A DNA stretch of 59,615 nucleotides from positions 1 to 59,615 of the forward strand of contig JAGAKI010000071.1 of NCBI GenBank assembly GCA_017625695.1, in the 5' to 3' direction. Both the position numbers and the translations under genes were made by a program. Positions 4,267 to 59,411 of this stretch are shown here, piece after piece (position 1 is the stretch's first letter; every line of letters starts with the position of its first letter). Origin of the DNA: Clostridia bacterium. GTDB taxonomy: Bacteria; Bacillota; Clostridia; UMGS1840. The notes beneath the pieces were generated by a model. That model saw only the letters and a list, made by a program, of their open reading frames with translations, did no database searches and had not been told where the DNA came from.

Positions 4267-4947
4267 ATGCTGGATATGACTTATGTTGTGTTTGTTTTAC
4301 CTGCATTGTTACTTGCAATGTGGGCACAGGCAAGAGTTTCTTCCACCTTTAACCGATACAGCAAAATTGCTTCCCAGAAGGGACTGACGGGTTATGATGT
4401 TGCCCGTAAAATTTTAGATGAAAACGGTTTGCACGATATCCGTGTGGAACGGGTAGCGGGCAATCTGACCGACCATTTTGACCCCAAATCCAACGTGATT
4501 CGTTTGTCTGACAGCGTTTATGCCAACAACTCCATCGGTGCGGTAGGCGTTGCGGCACACGAAGCCGGTCACGCAGTACAGTACGGAGAGGGCTACACCC
4601 CCATCAAAGTCAGAAATGCGGTGATTCCCGCTGCCAATATCGGTTCCTATGCGGCATTTCCGTTGGCACTGATTGGTATTTTATTTTCCAGCGACTGGCT
4701 GATTAATGCCGGGATTATTTTATTCTCGGCAGTTGTAATTTTCCAATTGGTGACTCTGCCGGTGGAATTTAATGCATCTCATCGTGCCATTCGGGTATTA
4801 GGAGACAGCGAAATGCTGGATAAGCAGGAAGTCCGTGGCGTGAAAAAAGTGCTTTCTGCAGCGGCTATGACATATGTTGCAGCGGCAGCAACCGCCATTA
4901 TGAACTTGGTTCGGCTGTTGGTGTTAACCAACCGTAACCGGGATTAA
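4267..4947 (+). CDS. YugP-family membrane zinc metallopeptidase
   Basis: The product is 226 aa. It starts with a hydrophobic helix (about 3-20), then a soluble section with a zinc-peptidase helix AAHEAGHAVQY near residue 97 (HExxH type), then two to three membrane segments (about 120-170) and a C-terminal hydrophobic stretch. Both His residues and the Glu are present. This matches the YugP/DUF2268-like zinc peptidases of Firmicutes, which are membrane proteins of unknown substrate. AAAGGAG precedes the ATG. Its place between fmt and rsmB is the conserved Clostridia/Bacilli context. Its biological role is not established. Confidence 0.88.
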   Translation: MLDMTYVVFVLPALLLAMWAQARVSSTFNRYSKIASQKGLTGYDVARKILDENGLHDIRVERVAGNLTDHFDPKSNVIRLSDSVYANNSIGAVGVAAHEAGHAVQYGEGYTPIKVRNAVIPAANIGSYAAFPLALIGILFSSDWLINAGIILFSAVVIFQLVTLPVEFNASHRAIRVLGDSEMLDKQEVRGVKKVLSAAAMTYVAAAATAIMNLVRLLVLTNRNRD

Positions 4948-5001
4948 TTTTTTAATTCTTTCACAAAAAATCTTTGCCGTTCAAGTGATGGGGATACCAG
5001 T

Positions 5002-6255
5002 ATGGAACGAAGAAAAATTGCACTTCTGATTCTGAATGAATACGAAGAAGAATCAACTTTTTTGAATTTGGCATTAAAGAACGGTCTTTCCAGATTGGAG
5101 GAGGGCCGTGCTTTTGTGACGGAATTGGTGTACGGTGTGGTACGTTACCGTCGTTTTTTGGATGAAGTTATCAACCGTTTTTCCACCACCAAGGTAAAAA
5201 AACTAAGCACGCCTGTGAAAAATATCTTGCGGATGGGTTTTTATCAGTATCATTTCATGGATAAGGTTCCCGACTTTGCCATTGTGAACGAAAGTGTCAA
5301 ACTGACCGCAAAATATGCCTATAAATCAAAAGGTCTTGTCAATGCTGTTCTTCGGAAAGGGTTTAGCGGATTCCCTAACGATTTTTCTTTGGCGGTAACC
5401 GAATCCTTTCCTGATGAAATCTATGATTTGCTGCAAGCTCAGTATGGAGAACAGGCGAATGAGATTCTTCGCAATTTAAATTGTAAGCTTCCTGCTGCCA
5501 TCCGATACAATCATATGCGGTATGAATCTGCTACAGAGGCACAAAAACAGTTGCCTGAATCTGAAATTATGGGAGATGTGTTGTTTCCGAAAGTTTCCGG
5601 CGATATTCGTTCCCTCATCGAAAATGGTGATTTTTCGGTGCAAAGTATGTCTTCTCAATTGGCTGTTTCGGTGTTGGACCCCAAACCCGGAGAGAAGATT
5701 TTGGACTGCTGTTCGGCACCCGGCGGTAAAACCGCATACATCGGGGAACTGATGAAAAACCGAGGAGAACTGGTAGCTTTAGAGTTTTATTCTCACCGTT
5801 GTGAACTTGTAAAGAAGAATCTGCAGCGGTGCGGTGTTACCATTGGAACTGTGATAGAAGCCGATGCTTCCAAAATAGAGTTTTCCGGACAGTTTGACCG
5901 TGTTTTAGCCGATGTACCCTGCTCCGGTCTGGGAGTAATCGGCAGTAAGCCGGACATCAAATGGAGAGATTTGCAGTTGGGGCAGTTGATTCCTCTCCAG
6001 AGAGAAATTTTAAAGAATATCAGTCAATATGTAGCAAAAGACGGAGTGTTGGTATATTCCACCTGCACCATAAATCAAGAGGAAAATGAATTGCAGATCC
6101 GACGGTTTTTAGAGGAAAATCCAAATTTTTCGTTGGAACCATTTTTCATAGAAGTCAATCACACCACCTACGGAGAGCAGGGAATGGCGCAGATTCTTCC
6201 CGACGGTGTGACCATCGGTTTCTTTATTGCAAAACTCAGAAAAACAAAAGAATAG
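5002..6255 (+). CDS. rsmB: 16S rRNA m5C967 methyltransferase RsmB
   Basis: The product is 417 aa. The first 130 or so residues form the NusB-like RNA-binding domain. The rest is a Rossmann SAM methyltransferase with the SAM loop LDCCSAPGGKTAYIGE near residue 234, VPCSGLG near 306 (motif IV Cys that releases product) and the catalytic motif VYSTCTINQEENE near 350. Both Cys are present, so it should be active. It methylates C967 in the small-subunit rRNA. The next gene starts only 3-12 bases after the stop. Confidence 0.95.
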   Translation: MERRKIALLILNEYEEESTFLNLALKNGLSRLEEGRAFVTELVYGVVRYRRFLDEVINRFSTTKVKKLSTPVKNILRMGFYQYHFMDKVPDFAIVNESVKLTAKYAYKSKGLVNAVLRKGFSGFPNDFSLAVTESFPDEIYDLLQAQYGEQANEILRNLNCKLPAAIRYNHMRYESATEAQKQLPESEIMGDVLFPKVSGDIRSLIENGDFSVQSMSSQLAVSVLDPKPGEKILDCCSAPGGKTAYIGELMKNRGELVALEFYSHRCELVKKNLQRCGVTIGTVIEADASKIEFSGQFDRVLADVPCSGLGVIGSKPDIKWRDLQLGQLIPLQREILKNISQYVAKDGVLVYSTCTINQEENELQIRRFLEENPNFSLEPFFIEVNHTTYGEQGMAQILPDGVTIGFFIAKLRKTKE

Positions 6256-9724: not shown

Positions 9725-9899
9725 TTTTAGCTAAATTTTGCAACAAGTTGCAAAGCGAAATTATTGCTCCGCAACAGCTAAATAACTCCTTTGGAGTAGC
9801 TAAATTAAATTCGCTTTTAGCGTGCGAAGCACATTTAGCTGCCATAGGCTATTTAGCTGAACTTGTTCAATTTAGCTCGCGTCAGCGAATTTAGCTAAA
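9725..9899 (-). repeat. GCTAAAT multi-hairpin element, copy 1
   Basis: Read on the minus strand this begins TTTAGCTAAATTCGC and ends ATTTAGCTAAA. It contains short hairpins with arms TCGC/GCGA, TGAAC/GTTCA, GCC/GGC, GTGC/GCAC, ACTCC/GGAGT and TTGCAAC/GTTGCAA. Hairpins in the first half are separated by AGCTAAAT and in the second half by ATTTAGCT. A junction GCGAATTTAATTTAGCT pairs back to the start. It begins directly after the T-tract of the tRNA-Lys terminator on the same strand. It encodes no protein. Two more full copies lie at 41198 and 57538. Confidence 0.9.
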
Positions 9900-41174: not shown

Positions 41175-41197
41175 GATTTCATCGAAGATGAAATCAT

Positions 41198-41377
41198 AGC
41201 TAAATTCGCGTTCCGCGAGCTAAATTGAGCAAGCTCAGCTAAATTGCCTACGGCAGCTAAATGTGTTTCGCACGCTAAAAGCGAATTTAATTTAGCTACT
41301 CCAAAGGAGTAATTTAGCTATGGAGCAAAGCGGAATAATTTAGCTTTGAACGAAGTTCAAAATTTAGCTAAATAACG
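41198..41377 (+). repeat. GCTAAAT multi-hairpin element, copy 2
   Basis: Hairpins in order with their arms: TCGCG/CGCGA, TGAGC/GCTCA, TGCC/GGCA, GTG/CAC, then the junction GCGAATTTAATTTAGCT that pairs with the element start, ACTCC/GGAGT, a weak GC/GC hairpin, and TTGAAC/GTTCAA. The linkers are AGCTAAAT in the first half and ATTTAGCT in the second. It starts about 23 bases after the -10 of module A, so it lies at the 5' end of the predicted RNA. Confidence 0.92.
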
Positions 41378-41483
41378 GCATCTAAATCGTTCACAGATTC
41401 TATAATTAGCATCGGAGTATGAATTGCACTGCGGATACAGAAAGGCAATTCATTCCTGTTTGAATGTATATCGGGAGGTCAAG

Positions 41484-57458: not shown

Positions 57459-57494
57459 AAAAATGACAATACTGTAACAGGTATTGTCATTTTT
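57459..57494 (+). terminator. terminator after ald
   Basis: AAAAATGACAATAC pairs with GTATTGTCATTTTT around an eight-base loop, then T-rich DNA. Confidence 0.9.
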
Positions 57495-57512
57495 TTGTAG
57501 TTGTGATAGAAT
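57484..57512 (+). promoter_or_regulatory. promoter embedded in terminator, module E
   Basis: TTGTCA in the terminator arm, 17 bases (T-tract plus GTAGTTGTGA) and TAGAAT. A hairpin TAGATTTAAC/GTTAAATCTA follows, then the structured element. Confidence 0.72.
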
Positions 57513-57537
57513 AGATTTAACAGAGTTAAATCTATTC

Positions 57538-57717
57538 AGCTAAATTCGCCTGACGGCGAGCTAAATGTGCTAAAGCACGCTAAATTACTTCGTAGCTAAA
57601 TTGACCTCCGGTCAGCTAAAAGGCGAATTTAATTTAGCTGTTTTGAAAAAAAACAATTTAGCTATGGAGCGAAGCGGAATTATTTAGCTTTGAACTTTAG
57701 TTCAAAATTTAGCTAAA
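57538..57717 (+). repeat. GCTAAAT multi-hairpin element, copy 3
   Basis: Hairpin arms in order: TCGCC/GGCGA, GTGC/GCAC, TAC/GTA, TGACC/GGTCA, the junction GGCGAATTTAATTTAGCT, TGTTTT/AAAACA, the conserved ATGGAGCGAAGCGGAAT segment, and TTGAAC/GTTCAA. The linkers AGCTAAAT then ATTTAGCT are as in the other copies. It ends 22 bases before the start of the four-helix-bundle gene and would form that gene's 5' untranslated region. Confidence 0.92.
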
Positions 57718-57739
57718 AAGAATTATGGGAAGTGAAGAT

Positions 57740-58099
57740 ATGGCAGAAAGCATAATGCTTGATAAAGCAAAAGATTTTGCAGTTGAAATTATAAATATGT
57801 GCAAAAACATAAAAGAAACAAAGAGAGAAAGTGTATTAACTAACCAACTTATGCGTTCCGGCACATCTATCGGCGCCAATATTCACGAATCAAAATATGC
57901 TCATGGAACTGCTGATTTTATATCAAAAATGCAAATAGCTTTAAAAGAGTGTTACGAGTCAGAATATTGGTTAGAACTTCTGAACAGAACAGGATATATT
58001 GATGCAGAACAGTATAAGTTGATAATAAATAATTGTGGACAAGTTCGCAGAATGTTGATTTCATCAATTAACACAGTCAAAGAAAAATCTCAAAAATGA
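57740..58099 (+). CDS. four-helix-bundle protein (S23 / Avd-like)
   Basis: The product is 119 aa from ATG 57740, which has GGGAAGTGAAG just upstream; an ATG at 57725 is less likely. It is entirely helical: LDKAKDFAVEIINMCKNIKE, TNQLMRSGTSIGANIHESKY (the family signature SxxSIxANIxE-type), FISKMQIALKECYESEYWLE and the last helix with QVRRMLISSINTVKEK. This family is found inside intervening sequences of some 23S rRNA genes and is related to Avd of diversity-generating retroelements. Such proteins are small, basic and thought to bind nucleic acid. It directly follows structured element 3. Confidence 0.9.
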   Translation: MAESIMLDKAKDFAVEIINMCKNIKETKRESVLTNQLMRSGTSIGANIHESKYAHGTADFISKMQIALKECYESEYWLELLNRTGYIDAEQYKLIINNCGQVRRMLISSINTVKEKSQK

Positions 58100-58108
58100 G
58101 GTGTTCTA

Positions 58109-58471
58109 ATGAAATACGGAGTAAAAGTAATATATACATATTCTGTTGGAGAAAATTGCAGAAAATATTATGAAGAACAGATACTATTAGTAGATGCAAA
58201 GTCTTTCGATGAAGCATATGAAAAAGCAAAAAAATATATTGCTGTATATGATATTGAACATAAAAATCCTCAAGGAGAATTGGTACAGACCGAGAAAATT
58301 GAATTGTTGGATTGTTTTCATGCGTTTGATGAAGAGGAAGATGTTCAGGAAGTATATTCTTCAACAATGAAAAACCAAACATCATTAAGTGAGGAAGAGT
58401 TTTATCAGACAATCACAAATCAGTGCGATGATGAAGAAATGTATGCTTTAAGGTACGAAGAATTCAATTAA
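58109..58471 (+). CDS. DUF4288-like protein
   Basis: The product is 120 aa. ATG 58109 is preceded by GAGGTG that overlaps the stop of the four-helix-bundle gene, so the two are coupled. MKYGVKVIYTYSVGENCRKY, then YEEQILLVDAKSFDEAYEKA and ELLDCFHAFDEEEDVQEVYS match the general DUF4288 pattern: a small alpha/beta protein with a conserved EA.SFEEAYEKA helix. The C-terminal third is acidic. Function is unknown. Its pairing with the four-helix-bundle gene and the flanking repeats is noted in the findings. Confidence 0.7.
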   Translation: MKYGVKVIYTYSVGENCRKYYEEQILLVDAKSFDEAYEKAKKYIAVYDIEHKNPQGELVQTEKIELLDCFHAFDEEEDVQEVYSSTMKNQTSLSEEEFYQTITNQCDDEEMYALRYEEFN

Positions 58472-58501
58472 TTTTGTGGCATCTAAAATGTTCATCAATT
58501 C

Positions 58502-58575
58502 TAGAATAGAGGTAACAAAGTTAAATTTATTCAGCTCAATTGACTTCGTCAGATAAATGTGAAATTGTGCTGAAC
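58502..58575 (+). repeat. decayed fragment of the GCTAAAT element leader
   Basis: TAGAATAGAGGTAACAAAGT and the following TAAATTTATTCAGCTCAATT align with the start of element 3 (57506-57547) with few changes. After that the copy is degenerate (TGACTTCGTCAGATAAATGT). It is in the same orientation as element 3, so the four-helix-bundle/DUF4288 pair lies between direct copies. Confidence 0.7.
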
Positions 58576-58576
58576 A

Positions 58577-58606
58577 TAAAAATGCCTTCCCGAAGAAGGG
58601 AAGGCA
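58577..58606 (-). terminator. terminator of thiT
   Basis: On the minus strand TGCCTTCCC pairs with GGGAAGGCA around a six-base loop, followed by TTTTTA. Confidence 0.9.
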
Positions 58607-59282: not shown

Positions 59283-59379
59283 TTCCCTACGTTGGCATTA
59301 TCCAAATCAGGTATGGCGAAAAACGCCCGGGTTAAAGCGGCAATACGCTTACTCTCAGCCTGCATGCGCAAGCTCCCCA
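59283..59379 (-). promoter_or_regulatory. TPP (THI-element) riboswitch
   Basis: On the minus strand GGGGAGC starts the aptamer. GCTGAGAG (pyrimidine-binding region) and ACCTGATTTGGATAATGCCA with ACGTAGGGA (pyrophosphate-binding region) are the canonical THI-box sequences. Binding of TPP should favour the terminator downstream and switch thiT off. Confidence 0.97.
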
Positions 59380-59411
59380 AAAAATATTTAGTTTTGTTCC
59401 GGAACGGCTTC

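Follow-up and report, generated by a model that had tools for sequence, protein, structure and literature searches.

The window analysed here is a stretch of 59,615 nucleotides from a Clostridia bacterium (UMGS1840; assembly GCA_017625695.1, contig JAGAKI010000071.1, positions 1–59,615, forward strand). Between ald and thiT it contains a unit extending on the forward strand from about 57509 to 58508, which comprises, from 5' to 3', a hairpin, a motif array, an IVP gene, a DUF4288 gene and a 32-nt tail. These features, together with two gene-less copies located elsewhere in the window, are the following:

9726–9897, reverse strand: gene-less array directly after the tRNA-Lys terminator, on the strand of the tRNA
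41175–41411, forward strand: gene-less copy (hairpin, array and tail), absent at the orthologous site in the sister species G003
57484–57512, forward strand: promoter-like −35/−10 (TTGTCA 57484–57489, 17-nt spacer, TAGAAT 57507–57512), pre-existing upstream flank, outside the unit
57509–57537, forward strand: 5' hairpin of the unit, stem GAATAGATTTAAC/GTTAAATCTATTC
57538–57717, forward strand: hairpin array, four copies of AGCTAAAT with hairpins, a centre, and four copies of ATTTAGCT with hairpins
57740–58099, forward strand: IVP/S23 four-helix-bundle gene (PF05635); the ORF could also begin at 57725
58109–58471, forward strand: passenger gene, DUF4288 (PF14119, E 4e-18)
58477–58508, forward strand: 3' tail, right end of the unit, 32 nt, TGGCATCTAAAATGTTCATCAATTCTAGAATA
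58504–58580, forward strand: start of a second unit in tandem, decayed (hairpin 58504–58532 and eroded left half)

The start of the IVP gene at 57740 is the one common to its relatives, and the DUF4288 stop codon lies 5 nt before the tail. The window is devoid of rRNA, the unit being situated between ald and thiT and not in a helix of a 23S rRNA gene; at the gathering score, Rfam reports two tRNAs and nothing else in the whole window. A region upstream of thiT (about 59290–59390, reverse strand) has by eye the look of a TPP riboswitch, for which there is no Rfam report at this score.

Comparison with related loci allowed the boundaries to be placed. The initial annotation had the element begin at 57484, but the 25 nt from 57484 to 57508 correspond to a promoter-like −35/−10 upstream of the insertion. 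The aligned ald flank of the sister species stops at window position 57512–57513, that is at the −10 box TAGAAT, where the unit starts, and the same or equivalent hairpins (GAATTCAAC..GTTGAATTC, GATTTCATC..GATGAAATC) precede promoter-type arrays at other loci. The ald–thiT site is rearranged in the sister species, and no clean target duplication is established for it. A degraded direct copy of the element start had also been recognised after the gene pair and is indeed present (the local alignment of 57507–57609 with 58502–58590 scores 74, against a shuffled maximum of 45). It is nevertheless not the right boundary, since the unit ends with the tail at 58477–58508, which is common to gene-less copies; the decayed piece marks where a second unit begins in tandem, comparable to those found in the relatives L268, L195 and L088. 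Apart from this, a terminator hairpin of about 54 nt with a promoter-like −10 (TGACAATATTG..CAATATTGTCATTTTT..TGTGATA) occurs in four copies in the window (41117, 45409, 46426 and 57455), two of which (41117 and 57455) are sites of unit insertion.

Genes of the S23/IVP family were described in 23S rRNA insertions decades ago. The protein encoded in the window matches PF05635 (23S_rRNA_IVP) with an E-value of 2e-28 (99 bits for a cut-off of 33.8), and its AlphaFold2 model (pLDDT 96.6) gives a TM of 0.92 to the S23-family crystal structure 2rld and of 0.79 to Avd (4dwl), in agreement with the S23/Avd-like four-helix bundle assigned from the sequence at the outset. Both solved relatives have five chains per structure entry and, by homology, the window protein would be a pentameric four-helix bundle. 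The likeness to the Avd of diversity-generating retroelements is one of fold, whereas no reverse transcriptase, template or variable repeat lies beside the window IVP: neither a reverse transcriptase nor TR/VR repeats were found adjacent to the unit, the reverse transcriptase genes of its own genome being on other contigs. The neighbouring genes are ald, DUF4288 and thiT, in line with the lack of a reverse transcriptase remarked upon initially, and the unit itself carries no catalytic gene. Elsewhere in the same genome (G000, contig C7, about 4283–5765; L046), a reverse transcriptase gene and an apparent variable repeat come after an Avd-like gene, and this locus is a probable diversity-generating retroelement.

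The array of about 180 nt consists of four copies of the 7–8-nt motif AGCTAAAT and then of four copies of its reverse complement; successive copies are separated by hairpins that differ from, and are unrelated to, each other in sequence. Compared with dinucleotide shuffles, the window array folds with a z-score of −6.3 as RNA and −7.1 as DNA, none of 200 shuffles being as good. Together with the array itself and the PF05635 and DUF4288 matches, this bears out the structured element that had been noticed ahead of the two genes. The predicted consensus fold is a ladder of duplexes between left and right motifs with four-way junctions, a hairpin lying on either side of each joint. In an alignment of 22 arrays, identity reaches 98% in motif columns versus 75% in the other columns, hairpin pairs are kept in 96% of the cells, and covariation within the hairpins amounts to 82 double-changed cells versus 27 in shuffles (0/500 shuffles). 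Judged from this alignment, the structure of the array is under selection. Motif copies are identical within one array and change together between families. Because the copies that change together are split by unrelated hairpins, they would be expected to have one common reader; this single reader, which the co-changing motifs imply, is the heart of the argument.

The initial annotation proposed that homologues of the gene should be found next to the element in other genomes, and in most cases they are. IVP genes of this class in gut Clostridia usually carry an array of identical architecture and different motif (TCGATAT, GTGAAAT, ATGATAT, AGTGATA, AATTCAT, ATGAAGC, GTTATGA and more). With a count of at least 4 for the top 7-mer upstream of the gene as a measure, arrays precede 31/49 and 58/82 of the SI/VGAN-class IVPs in two data sets, compared with 6/177 and 25/1221 control windows of the same sets; among other IVP/Avd-like proteins, an upstream array was found in just 1 of 22. 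Exactly one strand switch is present in 59 of the 69 arrays with at least five motifs. The motif follows the protein rather than its bacterial carrier (Mantel r 0.53, 0/2000 permutations): the nearest neighbour at no more than 80% protein identity has the same motif in 73% of cases, versus 11% after permutation, and single genomes contain up to five IVPs, each with a different motif. These comparisons show the array motif to be tied to the IVP subfamily, some part of the correlation being what linked inheritance alone would give. Since motif and protein co-vary, binding of the IVP to the array is predicted, and we infer that each IVP recognises its cognate motif.

One of these motif families was already known in another guise. 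The Gut-1 RNA (RF01706), described as a noncoding RNA from human gut sequences only (Weinberg 2010, PMC2864571), corresponds to the left half of GUGAAAU-family arrays and scores above the gathering threshold before eight IVP genes of this family (L048, L060, L105, L121, L148, L151, L163 and L165). The window array reaches 17.4 bits against this model, below the gathering threshold of 50.

Arrays are not confined to IVP genes. The genome of the window holds about 13 in all, most of them gene-less. Comparison of the gene-less copy at 41175 with the empty site of G003 again places the joint at the −10 box, the difference between the two also taking in a small gene after the tail. The left flanks of arrays are of several types, after a tRNA terminator, after a −10 box, or after TTGACA and a GC-rich hairpin; arrays beside tRNA or tmRNA genes are on the strand of the tRNA in every case checked, and some are framed by terminators and have no gene immediately downstream. 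Among 99 genomes, AGCTAAAT arrays were found in 12 (one being a coding false hit) and TCGATAT arrays in 9, the backward pattern used as a control giving 1 hit each, and the number of copies reaches dozens in one genome. In G007, arrays of two motif families stand in tandem with a common tail and GC-rich 5' hairpin (L263, L266). The gene-less copies are thus shown to be MITE-like derivatives dispersed in the genome. The data do not support the view that arrays strictly need a cognate IVP in the same genome, as this protein was not detected in several genomes with many arrays (e.g. G060, G015 and G004); such arrays fit old non-autonomous copies, and the gene may not be needed for their persistence.

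The right end of the unit was further characterised by means of a tail profile. Scores above 37 were obtained downstream of five IVPs (window, L025, L050, L129 and L061), the window scoring 40 and the best antisense match 6.7; the window tail was part of the training set, the four others were not. A tail was found after 6 of 155 IVPs, five of one type and one of another, and cassettes with this right end are therefore a minority of IVP loci. In the four loci besides the window the same tail follows an IVP and one exchangeable gene, and it likewise forms the 3' end of gene-less copies from two motif families. The second tail type, in L053, follows in the same place a DUF4288 gene 64% identical to that of the window. 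As passenger, L129 has a bacterial PH domain, L025 a pyrophosphatase-like protein that scores below the Pfam cut-off, and L050 and L061 have proteins without family assignment that look membrane-bound by inspection. DUF4288 is thus present in 2/6 tail-bearing units, and its role as a constant partner is rejected. The passenger stop codon is found 0–7 nt before the tail in five units and inside the tail in the sixth (L061), a layout that resembles the integron gene cassette, the likeness being limited to this arrangement. Deletion derivatives are also observed: in L088 an IVP fragment lies between tandem arrays (E 2e-6), and in G060, which belongs to another host family, an array is joined to a fragment of the passenger from G025, with 25/25 residues identical.

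Outside the Clostridia, tandem heptamers flank genes of this protein family on plasmids of Cyanobacteria, Bacteroidota, Spirochaetota and Chloroflexota. Exact tandem units are present at 36/46 IVP flanks versus 9/108 controls (p 9e-18, with the 46 flanks including plasmids of related Nostoc strains and not being all independent), and the enrichment is restricted to period 7. The heptamers on one side of the gene are often in inverse orientation to those on the other, and the unit differs from gene to gene. Complementary ends enclose the ORF in the plasmid relatives L277, L279, L285, L289 and L290, but not in the window, where both halves of the array lie upstream of the gene. In other phyla, the relatives consist of a gene of this family enclosed by heptamer arrays in opposite orientation. 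In Nostoc sp. C052, one of two plasmids carries a 422-bp (TAATTCG)n-IVP-(CGAATTA)n unit that the other lacks. The joints coincide with the outer limits of its heptamer arrays, and the right flank is 99.8% identical; the unit replaces 188 bp of the other plasmid and is not a clean insertion. Sharp junctions, which had been considered diagnostic of an insertion unit, are thus seen where sites lacking the unit can be compared, in Nostoc at the array edges. Plasmid IVPs are often situated inside defence or modification loci (hsdS-hsdR, drmD-pglX, cas2-cas1), adjoining cas1/cas2 in L281, L282 and L291 and lying within DISARM or restriction operons in L280 and L287. As IVP units adjoin cas1/cas2, and IVP is named in a figure of CRISPR-linked proteins (PMC10910872), heptamer arrays might at times be mistaken for CRISPR arrays. 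The short tandem heptamer repeats of cyanobacteria, including the TAACTGA repeats (PMC4679880), share the heptamer unit, and cyanobacterial IVPs are heptamer-flanked. A direct link between TAACTGA and IVP was not found: in 80 viral loci with TAACTGA repeats an IVP occurred in 1/80 and none within 700 nt, compared with 0/80 in the control (80 loci among the listed matches to the GCTAAAT pattern in viral contigs).

Taken together, these observations suggest, with a probability of roughly two in three, that the unit constitutes a mobile cassette belonging to a selfish element based on S23/IVP, whose protein is predicted to recognise its cognate motif; the unit has no catalytic gene, and mobility is read from sequence comparisons. 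The insertion unit imagined in the initial annotation is thereby partly supported: the association of an element, a four-helix-bundle gene and a companion gene is upheld, whereas its right boundary has moved to the tail and DUF4288 is no longer a core part. In the proposed mechanism, a pentameric IVP would read the motif of its own array, which presents it in several copies as DNA or RNA, and this recognition would tag the unit, along with its gene-less relatives, to be copied or inserted. The preferred insertion sites would be transcript-compatible, namely just downstream of a −10 box, behind a tRNA terminator in the sense orientation, or within an operon between two genes. DNA joining is assumed to be performed by a recombinase of the host or of another element, or by the replication-repair machinery, and a resident reverse transcriptase would seemingly not be required.

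Several known systems and explanations have to be weighed against this mobile cassette. The main rival, which we consider unlikely, is a cis-regulatory leader, the IVP being a TRAP-like autoregulator acting on the array of its own 5' leader and the dispersed arrays forming a regulon that does not move. It would account for the sense orientation of the arrays, many of which immediately follow a −10 box and precede a gene, and for their conserved RNA-like structure. Arrays between terminators and the dozens of copies in one genome are difficult to reconcile with it, and tandem copies, deletion derivatives and array-free sites point to mobility, with which a regulatory role of leader arrays could be compatible. 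Slightly less probable again are MITE-like elements moved by an unrelated transposase acting on the hairpin and tail ends, the IVP being just another passenger. The tail and 5' hairpin common to different motif families would agree with this, as would arrays lacking a detected cognate IVP, but the IVP is constant and motif-matched while the other passengers vary, and in other phyla the unit is reduced to heptamers and IVP. Similarly, REP/RAYT systems and MITEs resemble the present case in having scattered structured repeats linked to a single protein gene, as well as internal-deletion derivatives, and differ from it in that the unit has no Y1 or DDE transposase. Indeed, no transposase is linked to the element and Y1 enzymes are few, with no cognate one beside it, a single match on another contig of G000 and none in G006. 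RNA-level mobility via reverse transcription, as in diversity-generating retroelements with their IVP-like Avd, appears improbable and is already largely contradicted. In its favour are the shared Avd fold, the arrays in sense to tRNA genes and the reverse transcriptase genes of the own genome; dependence on this enzyme is rejected because PF00078 was not detected in G007, the genome richest in arrays, nor in G006, G060, G086, G050 and G025. Finally, neutral repeats arising by slippage and homogenised by chance beside IVP genes would explain the variable number of plain tandem heptamers between close relatives (L289 vs. L295) but can practically be dismissed, as slippage cannot homogenise eight motifs split by unrelated hairpins and enrichment is found only at period 7 and at IVP flanks.

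A close precedent for the mobile cassette is provided by the 23S rRNA intervening sequences of Coxiella and Leptospira, selfish elements with complementary ends and the same protein family. In the Coxiella one, the S23p gene is immediately preceded by 2–3 heptamers (GACAGAT) in tandem, and both the spread of such insertions and the role of the S23/IVP protein are still open questions (PMC4990558). The window unit differs in its location outside rRNA and in its palindromic array lying wholly upstream of the gene; the present arrays are elaborate, subfamily-specific and dispersed, and passenger genes accompany them. In the open literature, subscription papers and bioRxiv preprints being outside the scope of the search, no publication was found that connects heptamer arrays with S23/IVP genes in general. 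With somewhat less than even confidence, we tentatively propose a previously unrecognised class of minimal mobile elements in several phyla, in which a pentameric S23/IVP protein would read a cognate heptamer, either in tandem or between hairpins. Such elements would move with neither a transposase nor a reverse transcriptase among their own genes, and Gut-1 RNA and the 23S rRNA intervening sequences would be special cases of the class. The close match of a protein subfamily to a short repeated motif makes this a question of binding that is open to experiment, the orphan Gut-1 RNA gains a genomic home, and an explanation is offered for some of the short heptamer repeats of cyanobacteria.
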